From an uncultured Alphaproteobacteria bacterium (GTDB lineage Bacteria; Pseudomonadota; Alphaproteobacteria; Sphingomonadales; SMXR01), in the NCBI GenBank assembly GCA_937126915.1, contig CAKZLM010000115.1, positions 1-55,942 of the forward strand: 55,942 nucleotides of DNA, in the 5' to 3' direction. The translations under genes were made by a program, and so were the position numbers. A model generated the notes under the pieces. The model searched no databases and was not told the origin of the DNA. It saw nothing but the letters and a program-made list of their open reading frames with translations. This document shows, in pieces, positions 37,261 through 54,214 of this stretch (the stretch's first letter is position 1; every line of letters begins with the position of its first letter).

Positions 37261-38943
37261 TCAATCCATTGGAACGCTATGATGACCAATTTTAGCATCA
37301 CCGGTTTCAAGGAATTTTTCTAGGCGCTTGGCTGTTTCATTCATGACGTCACCCCATGGCGTGCCAAAGTCATAGCCAGTGTAGATGGCATTAGGCACCA
37401 TAGGTGGGCCATATTTCGATCCAAAGTTCCACCAAACACGGTCAAAGCACAGCCACCAAGTGGGGATGCCGGTAGAAGCTGCAAACATGGTGGTACTAAT
37501 GCCTGCTCCAATCATGATATCAAGGTTTTGCATGATGGCAAATTGTTCTTCCAAATTGTTTCGTAGATCAATATCTGGCTTATAAATCTGGATGCCGTGC
37601 TTTTTCTCAAATGCCGCAATTTCTTCGTCGCAATCTGTATATTGTAGCGCAATTACCTTAACGCCTTTAGTTTTAATAATCGGCAGCATTGTTTCGAGGT
37701 TAAAATAGACAGTATCACGATAGGCATCGCTTTTAGAGCTGGTCCAAGCAACACCAACTTTCTTTTCAGGCCCCATGTCGTTAAAGATTTTGCGCCATTT
37801 TGCGACATCATCATCATTACCCTTAAAAAAGCCATTTTCAAAAATTGGGAAGTCTTCGGTTTTACGGGCATAAATTTTACCCGCAACCCCAGCTTCAAGG
37901 GCATAATCAATATTGGCCTCTCCATCCCTAATTTTATATTCCAGTTCAGTGTAGCTTCTATAGAGATAACCTGAGCCAAGCCCTGTGTTATGAGCATAAA
38001 TTTCACAGTTGGGGAACGCGCGCTGAAAAGCTGGGACAAGTCGTCGATCACAGCCAATGTATGTTTTTTGAGCTCGCTCTACCAATGGGGCGTAGATCAT
38101 GGCAAATAAAATTTCATCACCAACCCCTTGCTCAGCATGGATAAAAAGTGTTTTTTTACTGATGTCTTGACCGCGCCATGGCTTGGCTTTTAGTGTATAT
38201 ATCAAGGCATTGTTATCCTTGACTAGGCGGCTTTCGTAGAGTTTCCAAGCCTTTTTAATGTCACCTATTCGAAAATAATCAAAGGCTAAAGATGTGCGAA
38301 TTTCATGATTTTTCGGGTTGATTTTATGGGCCTTTTCCATCAAGGCCATTTTTTCATCTGGTCTACCCATTAAATTGAGGGCAATGGCTTTGTTATTGAT
38401 AGCGCTCACGGCTTTAGGGTTTAGTCTTAAGGCTTCATCATAGAAAACCATGGCTTCTTCATAGCGCCGTGTGTGAGCTAATTGTGTGCCAAGAATATTC
38501 CATAATTCTGGTCTGTCAGCAAATCTTGGTATGGCTGCTTGAAGAAATTCTATAGCTTCTTCATTTCGACGTAACAGGCCAAGAATGTTGGAATAGCCGG
38601 CATAAGCTTCATAATCGTCGGGAAAAGCTTCAATGAAGATTCTATAGAGTTTTTCGGCTTGTTCAAGCATGCCTAGTTTTTGGCACATGTCACCCATGAC
38701 CGAGAGAACATCCCGCGTAGGCCCTAATTTTTCAAAGGCCTTTTCTAGTACTAAGACGGCCTTATCACGTACACCTAACTGAACCATTAAGTGCGAAATA
38801 ATGACAAGAAGGTCGCTATCTTCTGGCACAATATCCCAAGCTTTTACATAATATTTTGCCGATTGTTCCCATTCACCTGCTTGATGGTGTTTGGCGCCCA
38901 ATTGAACATATTTTGCTAACTTATCCTGCGTTGCGGCATCCAT
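37261..38943 (-). CDS. TPR protein with C-terminal glycosyltransferase-like domain
   Basis: 560 aa from the ATG at 38943 (a GTG start lies two codons upstream; GAGGA precedes both). About residues 8-250 hold TPR repeats (for example RYEEAMVFYDEALRLNPKAVSAINNKAIALNLMG). From about 260 a GT9-like/ADP-heptose-transferase-type domain follows, with HAEQGVGDEILFAMIYAPL and later GVAWTSSKSDAYRDTVYF. TPR fused to such a domain occurs in proteins that glycosylate flagellin in motile Alphaproteobacteria. A sigma-54 promoter back-to-back with that of flbT supports a flagellar role. Glycosyl donor unknown. Confidence 0.7.
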   Translation of the reverse strand: MDAATQDKLAKYVQLGAKHHQAGEWEQSAKYYVKAWDIVPEDSDLLVIISHLMVQLGVRDKAVLVLEKAFEKLGPTRDVLSVMGDMCQKLGMLEQAEKLYRIFIEAFPDDYEAYAGYSNILGLLRRNEEAIEFLQAAIPRFADRPELWNILGTQLAHTRRYEEAMVFYDEALRLNPKAVSAINNKAIALNLMGRPDEKMALMEKAHKINPKNHEIRTSLAFDYFRIGDIKKAWKLYESRLVKDNNALIYTLKAKPWRGQDISKKTLFIHAEQGVGDEILFAMIYAPLVERAQKTYIGCDRRLVPAFQRAFPNCEIYAHNTGLGSGYLYRSYTELEYKIRDGEANIDYALEAGVAGKIYARKTEDFPIFENGFFKGNDDDVAKWRKIFNDMGPEKKVGVAWTSSKSDAYRDTVYFNLETMLPIIKTKGVKVIALQYTDCDEEIAAFEKKHGIQIYKPDIDLRNNLEEQFAIMQNLDIMIGAGISTTMFAASTGIPTWWLCFDRVWWNFGSKYGPPMVPNAIYTGYDFGTPWGDVMNETAKRLEKFLETGDAKIGHHSVPMD

Positions 38944-39075
38944 AATCACTGGTCCTCAATATAAGTCATTAACGTAGGTGTTTTACAACATTAATGAGCG
39001 ATAGAACTGAATGCAATCATTGAAATATCTTATCGCAGCAATAATTTGCTAAACAGTATCATTTGTTTTTTGTGA

Positions 39076-39091
39076 TGCAAGGATGTTGCCA
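39076..39091 (-). promoter_or_regulatory. Sigma-54 promoter of the TPR/glycosyltransferase gene
   Basis: On the minus strand TGGCAA (plus 39086-39091) is followed by five bases and TTGCA, so GG and GC have the required 10-nt spacing. The -24 element is separated by only 2 nt from that of the divergent flbT promoter. It gives a leader of about 120 nt. Confidence 0.65.
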
Positions 39092-39093
39092 GT

Positions 39094-39109
39094 TGGCACA
39101 GTGATTGCT
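39094..39109 (+). promoter_or_regulatory. Sigma-54 promoter of flbT-flaF
   Basis: TGGCAC (39094-39099), five bases, TTGCT (39105-39109): a perfect match to the sigma-54 consensus TGGCAC-N5-TTGCW. It is flanked by an inverted repeat GTTGCCA (39085-39091) and TGGCAAC (39110-39116). Confidence 0.8.
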
Positions 39110-39241
39110 TGGCAACCATAGCCCTATTTTTTGGTACAGAGTTATTATGCTTTTTAGGAAGGCTATGATAGGCTATACTTAATAAAAGGACAGACATTAA
39201 GCTGCTTTTAAAGGTAGCGCTATATAAAAGGGGATAGGTTT

Positions 39242-39658
39242 ATGGCTTTGAAGTTATCACTAAAGCCGGGAGAGAAATTTGTATTGAATGGCGCCGTGGT
39301 TGCGAATGGCGACAGGAGAGCGAGTTTAATAGTTCATAATAAAGCGTCAATTTTGCGAGAGCGCGACATTATGAAAGAAGAGGATGTGAATACACCAGCC
39401 AAGCGGATCTATTTCCCGATTATGCTGATGTATTTGGATGATACGGAGTTTGATAAATATTATGACGAATTTATCCTGCGTATGACCGAGTTTTTGAGCG
39501 TTGTAGAAACGCCAGAAGTTATTGAGATATGTGTCTCGATTAGTAAAGATGTAATGTCACGAAACTATTATAAAGCTTTGGTAAGCTGTAAAAAGGTTGT
39601 GGCATTTGAAGAGGAGAGACTAAGCAATGTCAATGCAAGCTTATCAGCAGGCGGCTAA
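39242..39658 (+). CDS. flbT: FlbT, post-transcriptional regulator of flagellin
   Basis: 138 aa. FlbT in Caulobacter binds the 5' untranslated region of flagellin mRNA and limits its translation and stability (known). The family block MALKLSLKPGEKFVLNGAVVANGDRRASLIVHNKASILRERDIM is intact over the first 44 residues, and ALVSCKKVVAFEEERL closes the conserved core. Start at ATG 39242 with GGGGATAGG ahead. It overlaps flaF by 32 nt. The four flagellin leaders downstream are its likely RNA targets (inference). Confidence 0.92.
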   Translation: MALKLSLKPGEKFVLNGAVVANGDRRASLIVHNKASILRERDIMKEEDVNTPAKRIYFPIMLMYLDDTEFDKYYDEFILRMTEFLSVVETPEVIEICVSISKDVMSRNYYKALVSCKKVVAFEEERLSNVNASLSAGG

Positions 39659-40073
39659 GGTATCAGAAACACCGTCTCAGACTGAATATCGGCTCTTTAC
39701 AGAAGTGACGCGTTCTTTGATTAAGGCAAAAGAATCTGGTGAACGTGACCAAGGCTTTTTCAAGGCGTTGGACTGGAACCGTCGTATGTGGTCTGTGCTC
39801 TCAACGGATTGCGGCGCAGAAGGCAATCAACTGCCGAAAGAATTGCGCGCTGGAATTATCTCTTTGGCCATTTGGGTATCCAAATATAGCTCTGAGGTTG
39901 CACGAGGTGATCAAGACATTGATGCTTTGATTGATGTTAACCGTAATGTGATGGAAGGGTTGGCCATGCAAATGCGCCCGAAAGAGCAACCTTCTCAGGC
40001 TCAGCAACCTCAAAATCAAGCTGAACTTGATGCAGCACGTCAAAAATTAGCTGCCTTTTCAGCTGAAGTGTAA
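39627..40073 (+). CDS. flaF: FlaF, flagellin synthesis regulator
   Basis: 148 aa. FlaF is a partner of FlbT needed for flagellin secretion or translation in Alphaproteobacteria. The conserved YQQAAKVSETPSQTEYRLFTEVTRSL at the N-terminus and FFKALDWNRRMWSVLSTDC in the middle are family hallmarks. The last 30 residues are a Gln/Pro-rich disordered tail (EQPSQAQQPQNQAEL) not part of the core. It overlaps flbT by 32 nt, so the two are translationally coupled. Confidence 0.9.
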   Translation: MSMQAYQQAAKVSETPSQTEYRLFTEVTRSLIKAKESGERDQGFFKALDWNRRMWSVLSTDCGAEGNQLPKELRAGIISLAIWVSKYSSEVARGDQDIDALIDVNRNVMEGLAMQMRPKEQPSQAQQPQNQAELDAARQKLAAFSAEV

Positions 40074-40572
40074 GGCTTGTGTTGCGGGTTATTGCTTTTG
40101 CGGTCCTTCTTCTTAGGATCCCAGTTGATTATAATAACATAGTATTCTCGTTGTTAGAATGAGCGCTGTTTTTTAATAAGTGCTGACCTTCACCCTCTTA
40201 AATTTTTTTGAATCTAATCGGCCAGGCTTTTTATGTCAATTCTGTGCCGATGCCTTGTGTTGTGCCAGCTTTATGTTGGCGCTTGTTTAGTTATTTCGCT
40301 TTTCACAATGATTATAATATCTCAAAATATCGCCACCATTTTTTTAGGGTGGTGTTCTCGTCATTAATCATGCTCATAGATTATAGTATAGCTCGTTGAT
40401 CATTTTGTGTTTAGCTGGGTAATATTTTCCTACCAGTAACATCAATCTGGCCGATTTTTCCTGGTTAGGTAAAAAGTTCCTATACGAATTGGAGCTTTTT
40501 TCCGCCCTGTAGGCAGATAATTCCCTATACTTATCAATAGGTTGAAAATTTTTCCTAGTGTGTAGGTAAAAT
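40074..40572. other. Long intergenic region with clustered repeats upstream of the first flagellin
   Basis: Repeated half-sites of the form TTCCTA and TAGG-x-AAA: TTTTCCTA at 40425-40432, TTTTTCCT-GGTT-AGGTAAAAA at 40455-40475, GTTCCTATA at 40476-40484, TTCCCTATA at 40521-40529, and a near-perfect dyad AATTTTTCCTA (40547-40557) / TAGGTAAAATT (40563-40573) that touches the sigma-54 promoter. This looks like an activator array, by position perhaps for FlbD-type NtrC-family regulators. No gene is supported here. Confidence 0.5.
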
Positions 40573-40588
40573 TGGCCTAGTCATTGCA
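40573..40588 (+). promoter_or_regulatory. Sigma-54 promoter of the first flagellin gene
   Basis: TGGCCT (40573-40578), five bases, TTGCA (40584-40588), with GG at 40574-40575 and GC at 40586-40587, 10 nt apart. The predicted +1 is about 40599, at the edge of the first leader hairpin. Confidence 0.75.
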
Positions 40589-40600
40589 TGTTCCATCACG

Positions 40601-40656
40601 AGGCAAAATGCCTTGCAGACAAAATGTCTGTATTTTTAACTTCAAAATGAAGGAGG
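40601..40656 (+). promoter_or_regulatory. Leader of flagellin 1: three A-loop hairpins reaching into the ribosome site
   Basis: AGGCA-AAA-TGCCT (40601-40613), CAGACA-AAA-TGTCTG (40616-40630) and CTTCA-AAA-TGAAG (40640-40652). All share the centre CAAAATG while the flanks differ and remain complementary. The right arm of the third overlaps the AAGGAGG ribosome site (40650-40656). Confidence 0.75.
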
Positions 40657-40662
40657 CCTATA

Positions 40663-41481
40663 ATGGGTTTTTCTGTAAATACTAATGGCGGCGCTCTTGT
40701 CGCTCTACAAAACTTGAACAAAACAGCTAACTCGCTAAATACTGTTCAATCTCGCATTAACACTGGTTTGAAAGTTTCTTCAGCCAAAGATAATGCTGCC
40801 GTTTTCAACATTGCTCAGGGCCTACGTGCTGATTTGGGTGGTTTGAACTCTGCTAAATCTTCTATTGACCGCGCGATTTCTACAATCGACGTTGGCATTG
40901 CTGCTGGTGAGGCAGTTAGTGACTTGTTGATTGAGATGAAAGAGAAAGCTATTGCAGCAAAAGACACGGGTCTTGACGCGGATAGCCGTACTGCTTTGAA
41001 CGATGAGTTTAAAGAGCTTCGTGATCAGATTACAACTATTGTCGACAATGCTGAGTTTAACGGTGTGAACGCTGTTAAGTCTAACGCCGTTGTTGCTTTG
41101 TTGAACTCTGACGGTTCAAACAGCTTAACTGTTGCTGCTCAAAACATGTCTTTGGGTGGGTCAATTGTTACTGTTGCGGCTGCTGCGACTATTGGTGGTT
41201 CTACCGCTGCTGGTACTGTTGCTACTGCGATCGATACTTCAATTAAGAATGTTGGTACAGCCTTGTCTAAACTAGGTTCTGGTTCAAAACGTCTTGAGCT
41301 ACAAAAAACCTTCGTTAACAAGCTTTCTGACAGCATCGAAGTTGGTATTGGTAACTTGGTTGACGCTGACTTGGCTCGTGAGAGTGCTCAGTTGCAGTCA
41401 TTGCAGGTGCGTCAACAGCTTGGTTTGCAAGCGTTGTCTATCGCCAATCAGGCTCCAAGTTCAGTGCTATCACTGTTCTAG
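40663..41481 (+). CDS. Flagellin 1
   Basis: 272 aa, a short flagellin made of the D0/D1 core with a small central domain. N-terminal MGFSVNTNGGALVALQNLNKTANSL and SRINTGLKVSSAKDNAAVFNIAQGLRADLGGLN are flagellin helices; the C-terminal SIEVGIGNLVDADLARESAQLQSLQVRQQLGLQALSIANQAPSSVLSLF forms the matching half. The centre (about 135-195, Ala/Ser/Thr-rich) is variable among copies. It exits through the flagellar secretion system and polymerises into the filament. Sigma-54 promoter and hairpin leader directly upstream. Confidence 0.95.
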   Translation: MGFSVNTNGGALVALQNLNKTANSLNTVQSRINTGLKVSSAKDNAAVFNIAQGLRADLGGLNSAKSSIDRAISTIDVGIAAGEAVSDLLIEMKEKAIAAKDTGLDADSRTALNDEFKELRDQITTIVDNAEFNGVNAVKSNAVVALLNSDGSNSLTVAAQNMSLGGSIVTVAAAATIGGSTAAGTVATAIDTSIKNVGTALSKLGSGSKRLELQKTFVNKLSDSIEVGIGNLVDADLARESAQLQSLQVRQQLGLQALSIANQAPSSVLSLF

Positions 41482-41500
41482 GATAACTTTCTCCAGGAAT

Positions 41501-41522
41501 TATGGGGTCTTAGGGCCCCATA
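41501..41522 (+). terminator. Hairpin after flagellin 1
   Basis: TATGGGG (41501-41507) and CCCCATA (41516-41522) pair over an 8-nt loop. There is no T tract, so read-through into flaG is likely; it may instead stabilise the flagellin mRNA 3' end. Confidence 0.4.
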
Positions 41523-41623
41523 TCTTCCGCTTAGGGTCCTTGTAGAATAGAAAAATATCACAAGGATGGATGGAAAACAGACGTGGTGACAGACACTGCG
41601 CCATAGATCGAAGGATCGGTACA

Positions 41624-42073
41624 ATGAGCGATATTACATTCAATATCAAAGCTCTCGGTGGTGCAGCTAGCTATGGCAGTGAACCCCCAAATACAAAAAG
41701 AACTGCCAATGAGAGCGGCACTAAAGTAAATGCGGCTAAAACAGAAACCCTTGATGTAAAAATTGATGGTCAACAAAGCTTATCGCTTTCTGAGCGTATG
41801 GCAGCTGAAACAGAAGAGAAGAAAGGCTTTGGCTTTGATGCCGTTGCTGACCCTCTTGAGGAAGCTGCGAAAATTTTGGATAGTTTTATTCCAAAACAAA
41901 CGCCAGAAACACGCTTGCAGATTGATCATGATGAAGAAACAGGGCGTTTCATTTATAAAAGTGTGGATAAAATTTCAGGAGAGACTGTCCGTCAATTCCC
42001 GCCAGAATATATGCTGAAGGTGCTTGAATTGCATCGCAATGCAGCAGGCCTGGTGATGGATGACGAGGTATAG
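41624..42073 (+). CDS. flaG: FlaG-family flagellar protein
   Basis: 149 aa from ATG 41624 (AAGGAT upstream; a frame from 41570 exists). The C-terminal 60 residues carry the FlaG pattern LQIDHDEETGRFIYKSVDKISGETVRQFPPEYMLKVLEL. The N-terminal 90 are low-complexity and polar. FlaG affects filament length or cap in several bacteria, but is less usual beside FlbT/FlaF. It sits between flagellin 1 and 2 and probably shares transcripts with them. Confidence 0.8.
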   Translation: MSDITFNIKALGGAASYGSEPPNTKRTANESGTKVNAAKTETLDVKIDGQQSLSLSERMAAETEEKKGFGFDAVADPLEEAAKILDSFIPKQTPETRLQIDHDEETGRFIYKSVDKISGETVRQFPPEYMLKVLELHRNAAGLVMDDEV

Positions 42074-42329
42074 TTTAAACCTTAAGTCTACACAAACACA
42101 TGACGAGACATATACAAGAAGCTTAAGATTCTTGTAAGGGTACATATTTGTCTTCTAATTCTTTTAACTGACCCCAAATTCTGTGGTGTGTCAGCCTTCC
42201 TTGATTCTGAAAATGAAATAATATTTCAAAAATGTGATTTTTGCCTTTAGTGTTCGGAAAAAAATGCATGCTAATAATTCTGTCATTATATCAGTATGTT
42301 AAAGGAATATTTATCTCCAGTTGAAGCAG
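42074..42329. other. Intergenic region between flaG and flagellin 2
   Basis: With the adjoining leader this makes 366 bases without a gene. A 7-bp hairpin, ACAAGAA (42114-42120) / TTCTTGT (42129-42135), lies 40 nt past flaG, without a T tract. The rest is AT-rich up to the operator-like dyad at 42330. Confidence 0.4.
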
Positions 42330-42353
42330 GTTTTGCCGAGCTCTAGGCAAAAC
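42330..42353 (+). promoter_or_regulatory. Operator-like dyad before the flagellin 2 sigma-54 promoter
   Basis: GTTTTGCC (42330-42337) and GGCAAAAC (42346-42353) form a perfect inverted repeat with 8 nt between, ending one base before the -24 element. Its TTGCC/GGCAA half-sites resemble the pair flanking the flbT promoter, so the same regulator may bind both. Confidence 0.5.
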
Positions 42354-42369
42354 TGGCACGGTAATTGAA
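42354..42369 (+). promoter_or_regulatory. Sigma-54 promoter of flagellin 2
   Basis: TGGCAC (42354-42359), five bases, TTGAA (42365-42369). The -24 part is perfect, the -12 part has GA in place of GC. Predicted +1 near 42380 coincides with the first base of the first leader hairpin. Confidence 0.65.
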
Positions 42370-42379
42370 ATGTGGTTTT

Positions 42380-42432
42380 CGTGGCAAAAAGTGTCACGGA
42401 GGCAAAAGGCCTCAATTTGATCCAGAATGGAG
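42380..42432 (+). promoter_or_regulatory. Leader of flagellin 2: three hairpins, last one covering the ribosome site
   Basis: CGTGGCA-AAAAG-TGTCACG (42380-42398, one G-T pair), GAGGC-AAAAG-GCCTC (42399-42413) and TCCA-GAA-TGGA (42421-42431). The last contains most of the GGAG ribosome site. Confidence 0.7.
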
Positions 42433-42439
42433 ATATACA

Positions 42440-43261
42440 ATGGGTTTTTCTGTAAACACTAATGCAGGTGCGCTTACTGCTCTGCAAAATTTGAATAAAA
42501 CTGACAGCTTGATGCAAAAAGTACAGTCTCGTATTAACACAGGCTTGAAAGTTGCGTCTGCTAAAGATAACGCTGCTGTGTTTAACATTGCTCAGGGCCT
42601 TCGTGCTGACTTGGGCGGTTTGAACTCGGCAAAAGCGTCCATAGACCGTGCGATTTCGACCATCGACGTAGCAATTTCTGCTGGCGAAGCCATCAGTGAC
42701 TTGTTGATCGAGATGAAAGAAAAAGCGGTTGCTGCAAAAGATTCTGGTTTGGATAGCGATAGCCGTACTGCGCTCAATGACGAGTACAAAGAGCTTCGCA
42801 GTCAGATTCAAACAATTGTTGATAATGCGGAATTTAATGGTGTTAACGCGGTTAAAGATAACGATATAGTTGCGATCTTAAACCCCAATGCGACGAACAC
42901 GTTAACTATTGGTGCTCAAAACCTATCTTTGAGTGGCAGCATCGTATCATTGACAACAACTTCTAGTATTTCGACATCGACAGCTGCTACGGCTGTGGCT
43001 ACGGCGATTGATAACTCAATTAAAGCTGTAGGTGCAAGTCTATCTAAGCTGGGTTCAGGTGCGAAACGCTTAGAATTGCAAAAAACTTTCGTCAACAAAT
43101 TATCAGATAGCATTGAAGTAGGTATTGGAAACCTTGTTGATGCAGATCTGGCTCGAGAGAGTGCGAACTTGCAGTCAATGCAGGTAAGACAGCAACTTGG
43201 CCTACAAGCCTTAGGTATTGCTAACCAGGCCCCAAGTGCGATTATCTCACTCTTCGGATAA
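42440..43261 (+). CDS. Flagellin 2
   Basis: 273 aa, same architecture as flagellin 1 with conserved D0/D1 halves and a variable Ser/Thr/Ala-rich centre (about 140-195). The start was set at ATG 42440 by homology to the other copies (MGFSVNTNAGALTALQNLN); an upstream frame to 42365 is untranslated leader. It has its own sigma-54 promoter and ends IISLFG where the others read VLSLF(G). It is among the more diverged copies. Confidence 0.95.
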   Translation: MGFSVNTNAGALTALQNLNKTDSLMQKVQSRINTGLKVASAKDNAAVFNIAQGLRADLGGLNSAKASIDRAISTIDVAISAGEAISDLLIEMKEKAVAAKDSGLDSDSRTALNDEYKELRSQIQTIVDNAEFNGVNAVKDNDIVAILNPNATNTLTIGAQNLSLSGSIVSLTTTSSISTSTAATAVATAIDNSIKAVGASLSKLGSGAKRLELQKTFVNKLSDSIEVGIGNLVDADLARESANLQSMQVRQQLGLQALGIANQAPSAIISLFG

Positions 43262-43324
43262 AGATAGAATTCACAGGATTTTTGAATAAAAAACCAGCTT
43301 AAAACCGCCCTGAATAGGGGTCAC

Positions 43325-43397
43325 GATACAAATGTATCAAAATGAAAATGGCCAGAAGGCCGTCTAGCAAAATGCTAGATAAAATCCAGAATGGAGA
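43325..43397 (+). promoter_or_regulatory. Leader of flagellin 3: four hairpins, last one covering the ribosome site
   Basis: GATAC-AAAT-GTATC (43325-43338), GGCC-AGAA-GGCC (43350-43361), TCTAGCA-AAA-TGCTAGA (43363-43379) and TCCA-GAA-TGGA (43385-43395). GGAGAAG overlaps the last stem. No sigma-54 sequence was found upstream, so read-through from flagellin 2 or another promoter type is likely. Confidence 0.7.
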
Positions 43398-43403
43398 AGA
43401 AAA

Positions 43404-44225
43404 ATGGGTTTTTCAGTAAATACAAATGCAGGTGCTTTGGTTGCCCTTCAAAACTTAAACAAAACCAATAACTTAATGAATCAAGTTCAAACTCGTATTA
43501 ACACAGGTTTGAAAGTGTCTTCGGCAAAAGATAACGCTGCGGTTTTCAACATCGCACAGGGTTTACGGGCTGACTTAGGTGGTTTAAATTCTGCCAAGTC
43601 ATCAATTGACCGCGCCATCTCTACCATCGATGTTGCCATTTCTGCTGGCGAAGCAGTGAGTGACTTGTTGATCGAGATGAAAGAGAAGGCGGTTGCTTCT
43701 AAAGACACTGGTCTTGATGCAGACAGCCGGACTGCTTTGAACGATGAGTTCAAAGAGCTGCGTAATCAAATTACCACTATTGTTGACAATGCCGAGTTTA
43801 ATGGTGTTAACGCGGTTAAAACCAATGCGGTTGTGGCTTTGCTAAACTCTGACGGTTCAAATAGCTTAACAATTGCTGCACAGAATCTTTCTTTAGGTGG
43901 TGGTGTTGTTACTGTAACAGCTGGTTCATCAATCAGCAGCTCAACACTTGCTAGCAGCGTGTCAACTGCTATCGACAACTCAATTAAGGCTGTTGGAACA
44001 TCACTCTCAAAACTAGGGTCAGGTGCCAAGCGTCTTGAGTTGCAAAAAACTTTCGTCAACAAACTAGCTGACAGTATCGAGGTTGGTATTGGTAACTTGG
44101 TTGATGCCGACTTGGCCCGGGAAAGTGCAAATTTACAGTCAATGCAGGTTAGACAGCAGCTAGGGCGCCAAGCGTTGGGCATTGCCAACCAGGCTCCAAG
44201 TTCTGTGTTGTCACTATTCGGTTAA
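43404..44225 (+). CDS. Flagellin 3
   Basis: 273-aa flagellin of the same short type. It differs from the others near the C-terminus by RQQLGRQALG where they have RQQLGLQAL. 59 nt including its ribosome site and first codons (43383-43441) are identical to the same part of flagellin 4, pointing to recent duplication or gene conversion. Confidence 0.95.
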   Translation: MGFSVNTNAGALVALQNLNKTNNLMNQVQTRINTGLKVSSAKDNAAVFNIAQGLRADLGGLNSAKSSIDRAISTIDVAISAGEAVSDLLIEMKEKAVASKDTGLDADSRTALNDEFKELRNQITTIVDNAEFNGVNAVKTNAVVALLNSDGSNSLTIAAQNLSLGGGVVTVTAGSSISSSTLASSVSTAIDNSIKAVGTSLSKLGSGAKRLELQKTFVNKLADSIEVGIGNLVDADLARESANLQSMQVRQQLGRQALGIANQAPSSVLSLFG

Positions 44226-44239
44226 TAAACTTTTATGGG

Positions 44240-44258
44240 TGGCCCTGAATAAGGGCCA
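44240..44258 (+). terminator. Hairpin after flagellin 3
   Basis: TGGCCCT (44240-44246) and AGGGCCA (44252-44258) pair over GAATA. A similar CCCT-GAAT-AGGG stem follows flagellin 2 at 43308-43319. Neither has a T tract, so they are more likely 3' mRNA structures than full terminators. Confidence 0.4.
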
Positions 44259-44289
44259 TCTATCCCACCCCTTAGAAACAAGGGATAAC

Positions 44290-44364
44290 GGTATAAAACA
44301 TACCAAACTTTAACAGGCTATAAGGGCCACCCGACAAAATGTCGGACCTAATCCAGAATGGAGA
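44290..44364 (+). promoter_or_regulatory. Leader of flagellin 4: three hairpins, last one covering the ribosome site
   Basis: GGTAT-AAAAC-ATACC (44290-44304), CCGACA-AAA-TGTCGG (44331-44345) and TCCA-GAA-TGGA (44352-44362), the last again including the GGAGAAG ribosome site. No sigma-54 promoter recognised. Confidence 0.7.
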
Positions 44365-44370
44365 AGAAAA

Positions 44371-45192
44371 ATGGGTTTTTCAGTAAATACAAATGCAGGT
44401 GCTTTGGTAGCTCTTCAAAACTTGAACAAAACCAATACCATGATGAACAAAACGCAAAGTGCTATTAACACAGGTTTGAAAGTGGCCTCAGCAAAAGACA
44501 ATGCAGCTGTTTTCAACATCGCACAGGGTTTGCGCGCTGACTTGGGCGGTTTAAATTCTGCTAAGTCATCCATCGACCGCGCTATCTCAACCATCGACGT
44601 TGCTATTTCTGCTGGTGAAGCGGTTAGTGACTTGTTGATTGAGATGAAAGAAAAAGCGGTTGCTTCTAAAGACACTGGTCTTGATGCTGATAGCCGTACT
44701 GCGTTGAATGACGAGTATAAAGAGCTTCGTAATCAGATTACCACTATTGTCGACAATGCTGAATTTAACGGTGTAAACGCGGTTAAAACCAATGCTATTG
44801 TGGCTCTATTGAATTCTGACGGTTCAAACAGCTTAACCGTTGCTGCTCAAAACATGTCTTTGGGAGGATCGATCGTAACTGTAGCAGCTGCCTCTTCTAT
44901 CGGCGACTCTGCTACTGCCTCTACTCAGGCTGCTGCGATTGACGCTTCAATTAAGAATGTTGGAACAGCTCTATCTAAACTAGGTTCGGGCTCAAAACGT
45001 CTTGAGCTACAAAAAACCTTCGTTAATAAGCTATCTGACAGCATCGAAGTCGGTATCGGTAACTTGGTTGACGCTGACTTGGCTCGTGAAAGTGCAAACT
45101 TGCAGTCCTTGCAGGTACGTCAACAGCTTGGTCTACAAGCGTTGGGTATTGCCAATCAGGCTCCAAGTTCTGTGTTGTCACTATTCGGTTAA
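44371..45192 (+). CDS. Flagellin 4
   Basis: 273-aa short flagellin. The N-terminal part differs from copy 3 at NTMMNKTQSAINTGLKVASAKDN, while the rest is close to copies 1 and 3. The central variable part (VAAASSIGDSATASTQAAAI) is its most distinct region. Last of the array and followed by a strong terminator. Confidence 0.95.
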   Translation: MGFSVNTNAGALVALQNLNKTNTMMNKTQSAINTGLKVASAKDNAAVFNIAQGLRADLGGLNSAKSSIDRAISTIDVAISAGEAVSDLLIEMKEKAVASKDTGLDADSRTALNDEYKELRNQITTIVDNAEFNGVNAVKTNAIVALLNSDGSNSLTVAAQNMSLGGSIVTVAAASSIGDSATASTQAAAIDASIKNVGTALSKLGSGSKRLELQKTFVNKLSDSIEVGIGNLVDADLARESANLQSLQVRQQLGLQALGIANQAPSSVLSLFG

Positions 45193-45220
45193 TAAAAGCC
45201 AATATAATGTAAAAGGTGAG

Positions 45221-45252
45221 GGCGGGGCCAAGGGGTTCCGCCTTTATTTTTT
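45221..45252 (+). terminator. Terminator after the flagellin array
   Basis: GGCGGGGCC (45221-45229) pairs with GGTTCCGCC (45234-45242, two G-T) and runs into TTTATTTTTT (45243-45252). The T tract overlaps the 3' end of the convergent GH57-like gene. Confidence 0.8.
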
Positions 45253-47217
45253 GATTAAGTCAACTGAATAGCTGAAGATAAGAGGCATCTCTTCAAGTGG
45301 GTCAATTTTCTCTGACTTTCTGGTGTCATCAATTTCAGAGGCAGATAAAAGCAACCGTGCGAAATATCCGTCTTTAACCGTGTCATAGTGAATCATTGCC
45401 ATTAAAGCTGCATCGGCTTTTTGGAAGCTAAGGGCAATTTGTCGTTTTTCATCACCAATCAGAATGCACTGGTTGGTGGCTGCCATTGCTGTGTTGGCTG
45501 AAACAAGTAGCGATAAGCGGCCAGCATGGCTAATGGTTTCTTTACCTTCTAGATAATGGGTGTCTTCGTTTTTATGACCATTGGCACAGCTAAAGAAAAG
45601 AGTGTCTTTGTTAAAAACCAGGGGGTTAAGGGTGGTTTGACCCAAATGGCAGATGCATTGTTGATTAAGTAATTTTTTAAGGCCTTCATACCCGATGGTT
45701 AATTTGCCGTCTTCAAAAAGTTGTACATGCTTGACGATTGGACCGGCGTTGGTTTCAATTGTCGAGGTGACCACCAAACATTGCTGGTCTTGATCAAAAT
45801 AAATCTGAGGTTTTGTGGGGCCTAGGTCGGTAATTTTATGTTGGCCGGGGCGATCAATCGTTAAGTGCCCAGAATAAAAATCAGCGCCCCAAGCAATGTC
45901 ATCATAAAACCCATGCGGAATTGTGCCCATCCAAGGGTGAGGCTGGGAATCATCATTTCGCTTAAAGGCATCAATTGCGAGGCCGCGTTTGGGAGACAGG
46001 GTTAGGGTTACTGCTTGGTTTTTTATGGTTATGGCATAATTATCTTGATGAATAACAAAACCATCAGGAATACCTTCAGATATATTAATGGTTTTTTGAC
46101 GGGGCAGACTAGGTGTTAGTGCACCCAATTTTTTGCGGTAAGACTGCCAACGCGCATCGGTGATGTGGGTGCGAAAATCACTGCTCCAAAGATAACAAAG
46201 GGTTTTCCATTGGCCCAGATCGGCTTCATTTGTCTCAATAAGGTTTTGGTATATACGCCAACAACCCGTATTAATGGCGAGGTCATTACGACCAGTTAAT
46301 GACCATCGGTTTACATTGTATTTACGTTGTTTTTTAACGGTTATTGGACTGCTGTTACTTTCCAGTTTTAGATGATGTTTAGGTAAGTTCTTTGTCGCAC
46401 TTAGAGCATCGCTAGGCAAGACAAGCTTGAAGCGGTCGTCATTGTTTAAAACATCAAAAATTGCTTCAATACGGGCCCATTCCGATTGGCTGGATAAAAG
46501 CGCTTCATTTGAAAAACGGCCCGGGCGATAGTCAAAAATTTCTGCGTCACTGGTATAGAGGGGAATAGCGCGCGCCCCTTGGGCCAATAGTTTTTCTAGA
46601 TAATGGAAATAAGCGTCTGGAGTGATTTGGTCATGGGCAATGCGTTGAAACTGTTGAAAAATAAGGGCATTGCTCCAAAGAATATTTATTTCGTTACCGT
46701 CATGACCGCGCACGATTTGTGGTGCAAGGCCAATGTCGGGTGTCCAGTGGGGGTGATGGCTGGCAGGTTCGGCCCAGTCCATAATGATGGTGTCATAGCC
46801 GTGTTGTATGTAATGGTCCACCATGCCGGGGCTGAAGGCTTGCTCATTGACCAAGGCGATGGTGGGTTTAATGCCCAGCATTGATTGATAAATCATGTCA
46901 CCAATGGTTAAATTATAACTGTTAACCTTTGGCGGCACAGTTGGCCCAATCAATTGACTATATCCACTTCCTATAAATTCAACTTTTCCTGCTTTGATTA
47001 AATCAGCCAGTTTTTTGATCCATTGCGGGGATATTCTCTCAATTTCTTCAAGGGTAAAGCCCGTGGCTTCAAGGCCAATAGGAAGGTTATTATTATTGGC
47101 AAGGTCAAGCAGGGGCCAATAACATTTTTCAACCACATCTTTCCTAGCGTCTTCTTCGATGGAAGAGAAGGCAAGGTTCAGATGAAAAACATTATATAAA
47201 TAAGTCACTTGCGACAT
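45244..47217 (-). CDS. GH57-like polysaccharide-modifying protein
   Basis: 657 aa from ATG 47217 (GGGGA just upstream; a TTG frame reaches 47238). The N-terminal third resembles GH57/polysaccharide-deacetylase-type barrels: YNVFHLNLAF at residues 8-17 takes the place of the first His motif, and E125 in ALVNEQAFSP is a candidate for the GH57 nucleophile position. The C-terminal half is beta-rich, with ISLLV-type strands suggesting a substrate-binding or galactose-mutarotase-like domain. Possibly an alpha-amylase-like or glycan-trimming enzyme. It is the last gene of the glycan operon, 53 nt after its upstream neighbour. Confidence 0.6.
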   Translation of the reverse strand: MSQVTYLYNVFHLNLAFSSIEEDARKDVVEKCYWPLLDLANNNNLPIGLEATGFTLEEIERISPQWIKKLADLIKAGKVEFIGSGYSQLIGPTVPPKVNSYNLTIGDMIYQSMLGIKPTIALVNEQAFSPGMVDHYIQHGYDTIIMDWAEPASHHPHWTPDIGLAPQIVRGHDGNEINILWSNALIFQQFQRIAHDQITPDAYFHYLEKLLAQGARAIPLYTSDAEIFDYRPGRFSNEALLSSQSEWARIEAIFDVLNNDDRFKLVLPSDALSATKNLPKHHLKLESNSSPITVKKQRKYNVNRWSLTGRNDLAINTGCWRIYQNLIETNEADLGQWKTLCYLWSSDFRTHITDARWQSYRKKLGALTPSLPRQKTINISEGIPDGFVIHQDNYAITIKNQAVTLTLSPKRGLAIDAFKRNDDSQPHPWMGTIPHGFYDDIAWGADFYSGHLTIDRPGQHKITDLGPTKPQIYFDQDQQCLVVTSTIETNAGPIVKHVQLFEDGKLTIGYEGLKKLLNQQCICHLGQTTLNPLVFNKDTLFFSCANGHKNEDTHYLEGKETISHAGRLSLLVSANTAMAATNQCILIGDEKRQIALSFQKADAALMAMIHYDTVKDGYFARLLLSASEIDDTRKSEKIDPLEEMPLIFSYSVDLIKK

Positions 47218-47269
47218 AGGGTCCCCAATCTGAGACAAGTTTATCGACAGATTGATGTTCTGACAAGCT

Positions 47270-49009
47270 TCACTTTTTAACTGTTGTCATGATCAGATTT
47301 GCAATACGGGAAATATTGTTGGCTAAAGAATACTTTTTGGCACTTTCTTGCCAAGTTCCTAGTTGATCAGCATTGCTTTTAAGGTTGGAAAGAGACGTCT
47401 TTATGTCATTAAGGGCTAAAGACACTGCTTGCCCTAAAACAAGGCCTAAATCAAGACGTTCAAACATTTTGGCATTGGCCATGTCACCTAAATGATGACA
47501 TATCATCAAAGGTGGTCGCCTCATCATGATAGCCTCATAAGCCGTGATGCCATAACCACATATAATAGCTGAACAATCACCTACAACCTCGGTAATATCA
47601 TGTATGTTTTGATGGAGATTAACCAAGTTCTGTAATGCCTTAAGCGAGCTGGTCAGTGCCTCTTGGTCACTAAAGTTAGGGCCTATGATAACGTCAAACG
47701 GAATTGAAAGCTCATTGCATATAGTTGCCAGTGGAAGAGTAACGTTTTTTGGGTCGCTGCCACCCATTGTTATCAAAATCTTTAGGGTGTTTGCAGTCGG
47801 TTGAGCTATTTCTTTTAAAGGCGGAATGAGGGCAAAATCAAGACCGTGATAGGTATCGCCCTTAATATCTGTGGTCTCTAGGTCAGCTACCAACGGATAA
47901 AAGGCAAGATCAGCCGCTTTTTTGCGTTCAGAGCCATCGTCAATTAAAATAAGTGGTAAGTTAGGTAAGTCGGCCTTAATGGTTTTAAGGTCAGCGAAAC
48001 TTGTATCGTCGCGAATATCAAGGATTGCGGCATCAAACTCTCTCGATTGTAAAATGGAGCATAATTCAGGGCCCTTATGAGCAGGGTTTTCAAGGAAGAT
48101 TGTGCTGAACCCATCAGCTTGATAAGCATCGAGTTTTTCTTTAGGTACGGCATAGGTAATGCCCACTGAATGATGGGTTTTAAGGTAGTTTGCTAATGGT
48201 TTTAAGCGTTTTTCATGACCAAGCCCCATACCATGTCGTATTTCAGGGCACATCAGTATTTTAATGGTTTTTTCATCGGCCCGTTTTTGTCGCACAAAAT
48301 TATTAATCTTAACCAGCTCTGGCTTGGCTTTTAAAATGCTTACGGCATCTTCAATCTCTAAATCCCCTACAGGGGCACCAGTTTCGGCATAAAGGGCTTC
48401 GATAAAGGTTTTGTCTTCTGGTGTGTCGATGGATATGCGGGCGCCCGCAAATATATGGCTTTTAGGCAACGTCATTTTTGCCACATTGCCGTAATCTGGA
48501 TGAAGGGTTAAATAACCGCTAACATGTTCTTTTGCTGCCGGATCATCAGATTTTTCACGCAACAACCGCTCTAAAAAAGCGGATTTCATTATATCGGACC
48601 CCTCATGCAAATAATCATGGCGATCACCAGTGATGATATCGGCCTCACACAGTGATAATTGTTCTAACCCATAATCCAAAAGCCACGGGTCAATGAGGGG
48701 ACTATCACCTGTTATTCTGACAATATAATCACTGGGGAAGGCCTCATGGGCGATGCGAAAGCGCATCAAAACATTATCCAGTGGGCCACGCACAAATTTG
48801 AGTTTGTGACGTTGGCAATAATCAACCAAGGCATCATCAGACGGTTGATCCGAGGTGGCTACCACAATGGTTTTAATATGCTTAGTTTTTTTGAGACGAT
48901 GAATGATGTGCCAAATAAGAGGCTTACCCGCAATGTCGCGCAAAATCTTGCCCGGAAAGCGAGTGGAGCTAAGGCGCGCTTGAATGATGGCAGTGGCATT
49001 TATCATCAT
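47270..49009 (-). CDS. Fusion of SpsF-like cytidylyltransferase and PseG-like glycosyl hydrolase
   Basis: 579 aa, two domains. Residues 1-245: an SpsF/CMP-sugar synthetase-type nucleotidyltransferase with the P-loop-like QARLSSTRFPGK (10-21) and ITGDSPLIDP (99-108). Residues 250-579: a PseG-like domain (HGMGLGHEKRLKPLA from 259 and LITMGGSDPKN later), the family that removes UDP from 2,4-diacetamido-trideoxy sugars in pseudaminic acid synthesis. Activation and UDP-removal are normally separate proteins at different steps, so the fused order suggests a variant nonulosonic or other CMP-sugar route (inference). It lies 15 nt after the ATP-grasp gene in the operon. Confidence 0.75.
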   Translation of the reverse strand: MMINATAIIQARLSSTRFPGKILRDIAGKPLIWHIIHRLKKTKHIKTIVVATSDQPSDDALVDYCQRHKLKFVRGPLDNVLMRFRIAHEAFPSDYIVRITGDSPLIDPWLLDYGLEQLSLCEADIITGDRHDYLHEGSDIMKSAFLERLLREKSDDPAAKEHVSGYLTLHPDYGNVAKMTLPKSHIFAGARISIDTPEDKTFIEALYAETGAPVGDLEIEDAVSILKAKPELVKINNFVRQKRADEKTIKILMCPEIRHGMGLGHEKRLKPLANYLKTHHSVGITYAVPKEKLDAYQADGFSTIFLENPAHKGPELCSILQSREFDAAILDIRDDTSFADLKTIKADLPNLPLILIDDGSERKKAADLAFYPLVADLETTDIKGDTYHGLDFALIPPLKEIAQPTANTLKILITMGGSDPKNVTLPLATICNELSIPFDVIIGPNFSDQEALTSSLKALQNLVNLHQNIHDITEVVGDCSAIICGYGITAYEAIMMRRPPLMICHHLGDMANAKMFERLDLGLVLGQAVSLALNDIKTSLSNLKSNADQLGTWQESAKKYSLANNISRIANLIMTTVKK

Positions 49010-49024
49010 GGTACCCGTTTTTAA

Positions 49025-50266
49025 TTAATCAGTGTTCACGTAGGTAAAGTGAATATTGGCAATGGCTTTTTCTGCATTTTTGATGGCGTCTTCATGGCTC
49101 TGGCCTTTGGCGATGACCATGCCTACACGGCAAGTGTGATCGGTGGTTGCCTTAATGATATCACCTTCCTTAACACGCAATTCATGGTGGATTAGGCTTG
49201 GGTTCTCTTGCCAACTTTCATGGCCTGAAATGGTTTTGATAATTCCCGGTTTGGTAAATAAATAGCGCTGGCAAAGGTGCTTTTCATTCTCGTAAGGGGT
49301 CAGGTCATCGGTTGTCAGTTTTTCGCTTAAGGCTAATTTGATGGCATTTTCAACGAAGGGAATGCCGGTTGAATAAGGAATTTCCATGGTACAAAAATGA
49401 CCACCGCTTAATCGTGTTGCCATTTCTATGATCATCGGCTTACCTTGATGTATGACAATGTCACCCTTAACGACGCCTGTTCTGGCGCCTAAGCTGGTTG
49501 CAGCTTGTTGTACTAGGTCACAGATGTCTTGCCTTAAAATAGGAGAAATGTTGGCGGGCAGTTCACCGCCATCTTCGATCATAAAGGGGGCGTATTCTTT
49601 AATGCGTTGATAATTACGGTCTGAAAAACCAAACGTATGGCAGATGCCGTCAATGACCAAGCTTTCGGTACTTATTTGTGGACCTTCGATAAACTCTTCT
49701 AAAATCAAACGCTTGGTTGGTGAGTGGGAAAGCGCTTCATCAAAGGCCCAGTTGATATCGACATCAGGTAAAAGACGAATAACACCACGCGCACCACGGC
49801 TATCAGCAGGTTTAAGGATATGGGCTGTTGTTGGCTTTGCAGATAAAACCTCTTCCAATTGGGGCAGGGTGGTTAACTCGTAATATTGCGGAATGGCGAC
49901 CTTGTCTTTTTGAAACGCCTGCTTCATATGCACTTTGTCGATAGATGTAAGGGCTGTCTCAAGGCTATTTCCAGCCAGTCCAAGCTTATTGGCAACGGCT
50001 GCCACTGTATGGGGTATGTCAGACGCAACCGCAATAACACCATCAATAGGGCGAACATTAGTATGATAATCACAGGCCTTTTCAGCAGTGCCCTTGAGGT
50101 CATAAGTGCTGGATAGAATGAAATCATCAGCTACATTAGCCCCAGCTGCATCAACAGCACCATCTGTAGCGACCACAAAAAGACCCATGGATTGGGCTAT
50201 TTTGATGCCGGGCAGGGCTTCAATTCCAGCACCAACAACCAATAATGTTTTTTTGTGATCAGCCAT
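49025..50266 (-). CDS. ATP-grasp family ligase
   Basis: 413 aa of the carbamoyl-phosphate/D-Ala ligase type. The N-terminal pre-ATP-grasp Rossmann part VVGAGIEALPGIKIAQSMGLFVVATD is followed by the ATP-grasp core with ILKPADSRGARGV at about residues 150-162 and GDIVIHQGKPMIIEMATRLSGG at the metal site. Such enzymes join a carboxylate to an amine or thiol through an acyl phosphate. In this operon it may attach an amino acid to a sugar (inference). Neighbours are the SDR gene and the SpsF-PseG gene. Confidence 0.75.
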   Translation of the reverse strand: MADHKKTLLVVGAGIEALPGIKIAQSMGLFVVATDGAVDAAGANVADDFILSSTYDLKGTAEKACDYHTNVRPIDGVIAVASDIPHTVAAVANKLGLAGNSLETALTSIDKVHMKQAFQKDKVAIPQYYELTTLPQLEEVLSAKPTTAHILKPADSRGARGVIRLLPDVDINWAFDEALSHSPTKRLILEEFIEGPQISTESLVIDGICHTFGFSDRNYQRIKEYAPFMIEDGGELPANISPILRQDICDLVQQAATSLGARTGVVKGDIVIHQGKPMIIEMATRLSGGHFCTMEIPYSTGIPFVENAIKLALSEKLTTDDLTPYENEKHLCQRYLFTKPGIIKTISGHESWQENPSLIHHELRVKEGDIIKATTDHTCRVGMVIAKGQSHEDAIKNAEKAIANIHFTYVNTD

Positions 50267-50278
50267 TTTTGTGCTGCC

Positions 50279-51007
50279 CTATACCCACGCGCCGCCATTA
50301 ATGCTCATGGTTTGTGCGGTCATATAGCTCGATTCATCCGAGGCTAAGAAAACAGCGGCACCCGTCATGTCTTCAACCGTGCCTAAATGTTTTAAAAGCA
50401 ACAAGTTATCAACCAATTTGCGCACATCTGGAGCCATAGATTTAGCTGTGAATTCATTGCCAATAACACCAGGTGATAGGCAGTTTACGCGAATTTTACG
50501 ATCTCCCACAAAACGTGCTAAACAATGGGTTAAAGACATAACACCAGCCTTTGCCGCGGCATAAGATGGGGTGCGTGGCCCGCCATATTCACCCGAAAGT
50601 GAACCGATATTAATGATAGAACCACCCTCATTCATATGCGGCAATATTTTTTGACAGCATAAAAACACACCTTTAAGGTTTACGTCTAAAACAAAGTCCC
50701 AATCTTCTTCACTTAATTTGTCAAAGTCGTTGGTTTTGTTAACGCCAGCATTGTTGACTAACACATCCACGCCGCCGGTTTTTTGGGCAACATCAGCAAA
50801 CACATCGACAATTTGTTGGCTGTCACGAACATCTAAGTGATAAACCAAATCAGTGTTGCAGTTTTTAGCGGTTTCAACGGCACCATCTTTATTATTATTA
50901 TAGGTGACAACTACAGTGGCACCTTCGCGGGCATAGCTTTCAGCAATTGCTTTGCCAATGCCGCTGCTTGATCCGGTAACAATACAAACTTTATTTTCTA
51001 AACGCAT
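50279..51007 (-). CDS. SDR-family oxidoreductase
   Basis: 242 aa classical short-chain dehydrogenase. TGSSSGIGKA at residues 11-20 binds NAD(P), NNAG at 85-88, and the catalytic S136, Y149 and K153 (SYAAAKAG) are in place. Probably reduces or oxidises a sugar hydroxyl in the operon pathway. A FabG-type role is a weaker alternative given its neighbours. It is 12 nt from the ATP-grasp gene. Confidence 0.85.
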   Translation of the reverse strand: MRLENKVCIVTGSSSGIGKAIAESYAREGATVVVTYNNNKDGAVETAKNCNTDLVYHLDVRDSQQIVDVFADVAQKTGGVDVLVNNAGVNKTNDFDKLSEEDWDFVLDVNLKGVFLCCQKILPHMNEGGSIINIGSLSGEYGGPRTPSYAAAKAGVMSLTHCLARFVGDRKIRVNCLSPGVIGNEFTAKSMAPDVRKLVDNLLLLKHLGTVEDMTGAAVFLASDESSYMTAQTMSINGGAWV

Positions 51008-51015
51008 ATGGGGTC

Positions 51016-51684
51016 CTAACCTTCGTATTCTTTTCGTTGGTCATCAGACAAGGTGTTCCAAGCTGATAAAAAGTCATTTTCACCCTGTAATACCAATGGG
51101 TTGGTATAAACATTTTTCCAAGTGGTTGGGGGAACAGTTACAGCATCCGCACCGCTTGAGGCCGATTCCATCAGTTCGTGGCTGTTGCGAATGCTGGCCA
51201 GTAAAATTTGGGTTTTGCTGCCCATCACATTACGTAGTTTTTCTAGGGCGCTGGTGTTGCCTGATCCATCCAAGTAAAAATCCCGCAAACGCCCCAAAAT
51301 TAGGCTCACATAATCAGCATTAAGCATTAAAAATGGAATGGTTTGAGTGGGGTCAAAATTAAGAGTGATATTTAAGGGAATACCCATTTCTTTAAGTTCC
51401 TTAGCCGCTTTATAGCCCTCCAAGGTTGATGGGATTTTCACCACGATATTATCGGCGATTTTAGCGAGACGATGGCCTTGCTCGATCATTTCATTGCTGG
51501 TGCGATAGGTTACTTGTGCAGAGACAGGCCCATTAACCATATTGGCCACTGTACGAACATGGTCTAGGGCTTTACCGGTTTCTTTGGACAGAATGGCAGG
51601 GTTGGTGGTTACCCCATGAACCAAGCCAAATTGTTGCCAATATTCAATATCTTCAATTGAAGCAGTATCCAAAAAATATCTCAT
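51016..51684 (-). CDS. Transaldolase / fructose-6-phosphate aldolase-like protein
   Basis: 222-aa TIM-barrel of the short transaldolase family. The Schiff-base lysine is K83 in NIVVKIPSTLEG; the opening MRYFLDTASIEDIEYW and GVTTNPAIL (24-32) are typical. Its place inside a glycan operon suggests it builds or splits a sugar carbon skeleton for the dedicated pathway instead of serving central metabolism. 8 nt from the SDR gene. Confidence 0.8.
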   Translation of the reverse strand: MRYFLDTASIEDIEYWQQFGLVHGVTTNPAILSKETGKALDHVRTVANMVNGPVSAQVTYRTSNEMIEQGHRLAKIADNIVVKIPSTLEGYKAAKELKEMGIPLNITLNFDPTQTIPFLMLNADYVSLILGRLRDFYLDGSGNTSALEKLRNVMGSKTQILLASIRNSHELMESASSGADAVTVPPTTWKNVYTNPLVLQGENDFLSAWNTLSDDQRKEYEG

Positions 51685-51708
51685 TGTCTGAAGTCCTTTT
51701 GTCTTTAT

Positions 51709-53088: not shown

Positions 53089-53163
53089 GGTTTGATGACC
53101 CTTATTAAAAAGCTTTCAACTGGAATTGCAATTATGATGCCGAACTTCTGTTGTACGTGAAAA

Positions 53164-54201
53164 TTAGTCTTTTAAATCATAGGCTTCTTTCATGGTGACA
53201 ATGGCTTTTATCTTGTCACCAGCAATGGAACGTGCTTCTGGTCTTATTTCATGTTCATACAAAAGGGAATTGATATATAGTGTAAAGCTATCAAAATTAG
53301 CCATATGTTCAGGGGCGAAGACATCAACGCCATAACAATTTTTGCCCTGCTTTTTGGGATCTTTATCAACATAACATAAGATATCATCAATGTTCATTTG
53401 ATAATGTAAGTCATCAACGGCTAATTGGCTACCTACACCCCAAACAACAACGGGGCCCTCAATTTTTAGTGGTGGGAGTTTATAATTAGGCTGCTTTTCA
53501 ACTAAATCACGTGCTCGCATAGCAAGTAACTGCATGCCAAGAGGACATCGCTGGTTATGAAAAATAGATGTTCTTAGGTCAATGATTACATAACCTAATC
53601 TTTCTAAAAAACGACCGATTGAGGTCACGCTGAAAAAATGCAAATGGGATGTGTTTTCATCATAATAAAAGCGTGGATGACCGCTTCTGTTGGGTACTTC
53701 TAAATAGATCATTCCCCCTTTAGATAATAAACAGTCAAAGGCCTTGATAAAGTCTCCAATATCCCAAATGTGTTCTAGGGTGTGATTGCAAATCATTAGG
53801 TCAAATTGGTGAGTGCCTCTATTAGCTAGTTCCTGAATTGTCATATTGTGGACGACATCAACTTTTGTTTCTGCCTCTTTGTAGCGGGGCGAAATTTCTA
53901 CCCCTTCATATGATTTAAAAGGAACATTTTGGCGCAGTAATTGTGCGTAATTTCCATCAGAGACACCCACTTCAAGCGCTCTCATGTTTTGAGTGTGAAA
54001 TAATGATAATAAGTCATAAGCGGGCTGCATACGGGCATCAGACGTTTCGGAAAACATTGGGTTATTATCATAGTCATAAATAATATTTTCTGTGCGCCAC
54101 ATATGACAACATTGGTCGCAAATGTAACAATCACCTGATACGAGTGAAATGGTTTGATTAGGTTTTTCCCCACAGCACGGACAATGGTTAGAGTTGCTCA
54201 T
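53164..54201 (-). CDS. Class I SAM methyltransferase with N-terminal zinc ribbon (C-methyltransferase-like)
   Basis: 345 aa. The first 35 residues have two C-x2-C pairs (C7/C10 and C28/C31), a small zinc ribbon. The SAM core includes ALEVGVSDGNYAQLL (about residues 75-89) and FDLMICNHTLEHIWD. The C-terminal part has a Rossmann-like VVWGVGSQLAVDDL at about 264-277, as in sugar C-methyltransferases. Likely methylates a nucleotide sugar. A 75-nt gap separates it from the amidotransferase gene downstream. Confidence 0.75.
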   Translation of the reverse strand: MSNSNHCPCCGEKPNQTISLVSGDCYICDQCCHMWRTENIIYDYDNNPMFSETSDARMQPAYDLLSLFHTQNMRALEVGVSDGNYAQLLRQNVPFKSYEGVEISPRYKEAETKVDVVHNMTIQELANRGTHQFDLMICNHTLEHIWDIGDFIKAFDCLLSKGGMIYLEVPNRSGHPRFYYDENTSHLHFFSVTSIGRFLERLGYVIIDLRTSIFHNQRCPLGMQLLAMRARDLVEKQPNYKLPPLKIEGPVVVWGVGSQLAVDDLHYQMNIDDILCYVDKDPKKQGKNCYGVDVFAPEHMANFDSFTLYINSLLYEHEIRPEARSIAGDKIKAIVTMKEAYDLKD

Positions 54202-54214
54202 AGAAACCTTCTTT

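Follow-up and report, generated by a model that had tools for sequence, protein, structure and literature searches.

We consider it likely that the window, i.e. the stretch of 55,942 nucleotides analysed here from a Kordiimonadales-type alphaproteobacterium, carries a divergent pair of RpoN-dependent flagellar promoters, one serving the gene of an FlmG-type glycosyltransferase and the other serving the flbT-flaF operon, and that the pair is opened most likely by FlbD/FliX. The evidence comes from the geometry and the rarity of the two sites, from the genes and regulators that accompany them, and from the comparison of the same intergenic region in related genomes.

Sequence and geometry of the putative promoter pair

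The 41 bases at positions 39076-39116, read directly from the window sequence, are TGCAAGGATGTTGCCA-GT-TGGCACAGTGATTGCT-TGGCAAC. The putative sigma-54 promoter of flbT-flaF, located on the plus strand at 39094-39109 (TGGCACAGTGATTGCT), is a perfect consensus, i.e. every scored position matches, with GG at 39095-39096, N10, and GC at 39107-39108; the putative sigma-54 promoter of the flmG homologue, located on the minus strand at 39076-39091 (TGGCAACATCCTTGCA), has a single mismatch, in its -24 hexamer, and retains GG-N10-GC, with the GC at 39078-39077. Both sites carry a TGGCAC/TTGC-type context, with exactly N10 between the -24 GG and the -12 GC, and their -24 elements, TTGCCA of the minus-strand site (39086-39091) and TGGCAC of the plus-strand site (39094-39099), are separated by the 2-nt spacer GT (39092-39093). 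An earlier, sequence-only reading had described TTGCCA-GT-TGGCAC at 39086-39099 as two divergent -24 elements that lie 2 nt apart, each with a correctly spaced -12 element (GG-N10-GC) on its own strand, and our re-reading agrees on both points. When the starts are placed approximately 12 nt past each -12 element, they are predicted near 39120 for flbT-flaF and near 39065 for the flmG homologue, approximately 55 bp apart, and the predicted leaders up to the flbT ATG (39242) and the flmG-homologue ATG (38943) are each approximately 122 nt long.

The third TGGCAAC (39110-39116, plus strand), also pointed out in that reading, does form a real 7-bp inverted repeat with GTTGCCA at 39085-39091, but we have rejected this repeat as a meaningful element, because 7-bp inverted repeats with a spacer of up to 30 occur once per 277 bp of the window and because a search for its conservation in relatives found none; frequency and relatives leave a function of this arm unsupported. 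The dyad TGCCA-GT-TGGCA, which is perfect and is followed by the further TGGCAAC, might alternatively be the binding site of another dimeric regulator, with the promoter matches being secondary; we regard this as very improbable, since in relatives the -12 spacing is fixed on each side, while the dyad spacing varies or one side only is present.

The exact pattern TGGCAC-N5-TTGCW has three occurrences in the 2.79-Mb genome, as counted by pattern searches, on which our genome-wide statistics rest: the plus-strand site at 39094-39109 is one of them, and one of the other two perfect matches adjoins a pspA-like gene and the gene of a pspF-like activator. In dinucleotide shuffles of the window sequence, 0.1 perfect plus-strand sites arose, and divergent pairs within 35 bp whose scores reached 27 or more numbered 0.0. 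Any window of 56 kb holds several moderate matches, and approximately five of score 27 or higher occur in the shuffles, but the reading of both sites as chance resemblances is contradicted by the perfect score, the position, the pairing and the conservation of the sites; we have rejected it, as hardly credible, on the grounds of genome rarity, shuffles and conservation.

The genes on both sides of the pair

The minus-strand gene (37261-38943) encodes TPR repeats, recognised by Pfam, followed by a GT-B-like glycosyltransferase domain at the C-terminus, which neither Pfam nor NCBIfam recognised; it has an ATG at 38943, an alternative GTG start at 38949, and a GAGG ribosome-binding site. The predicted model of its product has a mean pLDDT of 89, and its best matches are plant SPINDLY and O-GlcNAc transferase, with low full-length TM-scores; homologues at the same locus position in Caulobacteraceae are approximately 26-34% identical to it. 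Judged by synteny, domain order and predicted fold, the gene is a homologue of FlmG, the likeness to the Caulobacter protein being one of architecture. Caulobacter FlmG is a flagellin glycosyltransferase that binds flagellin by its TPR part (PMC7591256).

On the plus strand, flbT (39242-39658; Pfam FlbT, E 1.7e-44) and flaF (39627-40073; Pfam FlaF, E 1.8e-33) are followed by four flagellin genes between 40663 and 45192 (ATG at 40663, 42440, 43404 and 44371; sequence reading and Pfam), with a flaG gene located within 41570-42073, after the first flagellin. Homologues of flmG are divergent beside flbT throughout the Kordiimonadales and Caulobacterales loci. A cytidylyltransferase/PseG-like fusion on the minus strand (47270-49009; NCBIfam PseG, E 1.7e-17, below the cut-off) is a probable nonulosonic-acid (pseudaminic-type) sugar gene, and NeuB is encoded beside PseB-like and PseC-like genes, named by sequence reading, on a contig with two more flagellins. 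Flagellin glycosylation is the likely function, because the FlmG architecture and synteny coincide with these NeuB, PseB/PseC-like and PseG-like genes. The sequence-only reading had proposed that the TPR/glycosyltransferase gene is flagellar, perhaps for flagellin glycosylation, and this proposal gains from the FlmG architecture, the fold, the synteny with flbT-flaF and the sugar genes: the gene is probably a flagellar gene for an FlmG-type flagellin glycosyltransferase.

As a separate observation, a run of sugar-type genes follows the flagellins on the minus strand (45244-55459), comprising cytidylyltransferase/PseG-like, ATP-grasp, SDR, transaldolase-like, asparagine-synthase-like, methyltransferase and pyruvyl-transferase-like genes; by its gene content, the run is possibly an unusual nonulosonic-acid or surface-glycan pathway.

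Regulators and the late flagellar genes

The genome encodes RpoN (E 1.4e-70), FliX (E 6e-35) and at least five sigma-54 AAA+ activators, including an FlbD-like activator, named by gene order, that lies inside a fliF-fliG-fliH-fliN-motA-flbD-flhA run. Sigma-54-type sites are found upstream of the fliK-flgD-flgE hook operon, of two flagellins on contig 69 and of two of the four window flagellins; by site scoring, the latter are located on the plus strand at 40573-40588, before flagellin 1, and at 42354-42369, before flagellin 2, with an imperfect -12 element. Upstream of flagellins 3 and 4 (43262-43403 and 44226-44370), no sigma-54-like site above background was found, so these two genes may be co-transcribed with flagellin 2, while retaining hairpin leaders of their own.

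Since rpoN, flbD and fliX are present and sigma-54 sites occur at the hook operon and the flagellins, the flmG/flbT pair fits a sigma-54 late flagellar regulon. The two sigma-54 promoters that had been read from the letters, one for flbT-flaF and one for the TPR/glycosyltransferase gene, are in line with their rarity, their conservation, these regulators and the sites at hook operon and flagellins, and both are very probably genuine. FlbD, under the control of FliX, would open both promoters at the time when the hook operon and the flagellins are expressed, so that flagellin glycosylation, translational control and export would be switched on together. Motif searches for an FlbD (ftr) or other activator site near the promoters gave nothing convincing, and expectation-maximisation on flagellar upstream regions returned weak motifs only, from which we claim no activator site. 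Three further facts count against our preferred reading: the 2-nt spacing is confined to this genome, two of the four flagellated members of the window's family have no flmG-side site, and several other sigma-54 activators are encoded in the genome.

Conservation of the two promoters among relatives

The flmG-flbT intergenic regions were scored at 84 non-redundant loci, 39 of Kordiimonadales type and 45 of Caulobacterales type; the two groups were separated by FlmG protein similarity and by the flmG site itself, which makes the grouping partly dependent on the trait, and the loci in either group are related to one another. On the flmG side, 26 of the 39 Kordiimonadales-type regions have a strong sigma-54 site, versus 0.43 expected from shuffles; on the flbT side, nine of them have a site, versus 1.2 expected. 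Sigma-54 sites were found on neither side in the 45 Caulobacterales-type regions, 40 of which have a CtrA-type box (TTAA-N7-TTAA, one mismatch allowed; 2.3 expected). It is the flmG promoter and not that of flbT which is widely conserved, and, on this distribution, the promoter of the enzyme is old as well as conserved. From the CtrA boxes of the Caulobacterales and the sigma-54 sites of the Kordiimonadales, the flmG/flbT module appears to have changed between the two controls; for Caulobacter flmG, control by CtrA has been established by experiment (PMC7591256).

On the FlmG tree, the four promoter states require eight changes versus 21.5 in shuffles, and thus cluster by lineage, while the state with both promoters arose or was lost repeatedly, as it accounts for five changes. 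Within the family of the window, the flbT-side site is present in four of the four flagellated genomes, and the flmG-side site in two of the four. Of the culturable relatives, Pseudokordiimonas caeni carries both sites and Kordiimonas gwangyangensis only that of flmG.

An arrangement in which the flmG-side promoter alone depends on sigma-54, with flbT being read mainly from a nearer sigma-70-type or CtrA-dependent promoter, would agree with the conserved TRGC-N19-TTATRRT block that most Kordiimonadaceae have in place of the flbT sigma-54 site, and with a CtrA-like box, TTAA-N7-TTAA, in the flbT leader (39197-39211). For the window we find this arrangement improbable, as the flbT site is a perfect consensus and is shared by all four flagellated family members, the block is absent, and the box is no more frequent in this group than expected by chance; for the last reason, CtrA control in the window has been rejected.

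Spacing of the pair and possible competition for polymerase

In relatives, the flmG/flbT pairing and the flmG promoter are conserved, but not the 2-nt spacing, which is unique to this genome: the gap between the -24 elements is 10 nt in four Kordiimonas-type genomes (three close ones and L045, whose flbT site is weaker) and widens to 34 nt in L010 and to 54 nt in L003, and in L038 the sites are interleaved. A strict back-to-back TGGC-N7-TTGC search of 196 genomes of the order gave matches in 32 genomes, which is an undercount, because the pattern skips sites with CTGC at -12. Thirty of these loci were inspected: 28 lie inside ORFs and one at the end of a contig; the window pair alone is clearly intergenic. 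We have also rejected a general use of the back-to-back layout in the order, as its strict form was not seen and the other examined loci lie in ORFs or at the contig end.

Other elements recur near the flmG promoter of relatives: most Kordiimonadaceae have, 8-13 nt from the flmG -24, a TRGC element (16 of 26 regions; approximately 1.4 expected) and, 32-34 nt from that -24, a TTATRRT block (13 of the 26), perhaps an flbT promoter that is not of the sigma-54 type. Because of these elements, close divergent promoters may be ancestral, with the polymerase class of the flbT side changing. Motif discovery in the intergenic regions of the relatives also returned a block, CTTAT-N3-ATAAG, that goes with the flmG promoter and is absent from the window. 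This block is palindromic, keeps a constant distance of 32-34 nt from the flmG -24 with TRGC in between, lies approximately 70-130 bp before flbT, and is carried by L009, L011, L012, L034, L037, L044, L047, L055, L059, L086 and others; it would be either a non-sigma-54 flbT promoter or the site of a regulator.

Sigma-54 closed complexes extend to roughly -35. With predicted starts approximately 55 bp apart, two such complexes in the window would therefore overlap upstream by several bases, and simultaneous occupancy is unlikely; competition for polymerase at the pair is a sound deduction from this geometry, and closed complexes whose -24 elements lie 2 nt apart would seldom be present at the same time. 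It is an even question whether the pair consists of two ordinary, independent sigma-54 promoters that lie close by chance, with a neutral spacing and an overlap made inconsequential by fast turnover or low occupancy: the spacing ranges from 2 nt to more than 50 nt among relatives and L038 has interleaved sites, but stability is a known property of sigma-54 closed complexes (PMC7057263), and closeness itself may be kept, given that 16 of the 26 regions have an element at 8-13 nt from the flmG -24. A regulatory use of the exclusion, i.e. a one-polymerase, two-way switch in which a stable closed complex at either promoter shuts out its neighbour, seems doubtful to us, because the spacing is not conserved; if it were true, each activation event would serve either the glycosyltransferase or FlbT/FlaF, and the level of flagellin modification would be tied to the control of translation and export. 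The 2-nt spacing also offers a compact natural template on which mutual exclusion of adjacent sigma-54 closed complexes could be studied.

Hairpins in the flagellin leaders

Apart from the promoters, the flagellin leaders contain tandem hairpins with a CAAAANG loop, located in the window at 40599-40615, 40614-40632, 40640-40652, 42399-42413, 43362-43380 and 44331-44345. Counting stems of at least 5 bp, 105 such hairpins are present in 76 of 172 flagellin leaders, versus 0.05 in mononucleotide shuffles, and they occur in the flagellin leaders of 58 of 86 related loci, mainly near -40 and between -55 and -60 relative to the ATG; their stems show 74 different pairings. An unbiased loop count over the flagellin leaders returns the same CAAAANG loop, which is invariant, while the stems vary freely; an Rfam search of 38900-45400 gave no credible known RNA family. 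The hairpin is a candidate target of FlbT, a protein whose sequence selectivity is left blank and whose mechanism is listed as unresolved in a review (PMC4347634). Just before the ATG, flagellins 42440, 43404 and 44371 have TCCAGAATGGAG and flagellin 40663 has CTTCAAAATGAAGGAG; another small hairpin, whose loop is similar (CAGAATG or CAAAATG), contains or adjoins the ribosome-binding site, as though that site were within reach of the same reader. With the conserved leader hairpin, the question of which feature of flagellin mRNA FlbT recognises becomes open to direct test, and the hairpin is possibly more important than the promoter pair.

Relation to known systems and significance

In Caulobacter crescentus, flmG (CCNA_01524, formerly flbA) likewise encodes a TPR and glycosyltransferase protein for flagellin and neighbours flbT-flaF (PMC7591256), and in Caulobacteraceae loci other than Caulobacter flmG and flbT-flaF are divergent; however, Caulobacter flmG is CtrA-dependent and Caulobacterales loci have CtrA-type boxes, whereas the window genome has sigma-54 sites on both sides. 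The flaN/flbG units of Caulobacter (Mullin and Newton 1993, as cited in PMC3096577) are also divergent flagellar units with a sigma-54 promoter and FlbD-type ftr elements, but, as far as the citing account describes them, they concern other genes (the hook region) and use ftr elements, while no ftr site was identified in the window. The flgB2p-fliI2p and fliL2p-fliF2p pairs of the Rhodobacter sphaeroides fla2 system are divergent flagellar promoters a few bp apart, whose architecture varies among relatives; unlike the sigma-54 pair of the window, they are CtrA-dependent (PMC6180460). In Helicobacter and Campylobacter, the enzymes of flagellin glycosylation likewise belong to the RpoN-dependent flagellar class, but under FlgR/FlgS control, with different enzymes and with no back-to-back pair with flbT (PMC3930126). 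Our literature searches found no clear precedent for back-to-back sigma-54 promoters and no flagellar study of Kordiimonas. Divergent sigma-54 flagellar promoters are already known; what sets the present case apart is the gene pair, the contrast between CtrA and sigma-54, and the 2-nt spacing.

With boxes of the CtrA type in Caulobacterales and promoters of the sigma-54 type in Kordiimonadales, this divergent gene pair provides a clean example of how comparison can reveal regulatory rewiring; the change from CtrA to sigma-54 would shift flagellin glycosylation from an early step, timed by the cell cycle, to the late flagellar class.
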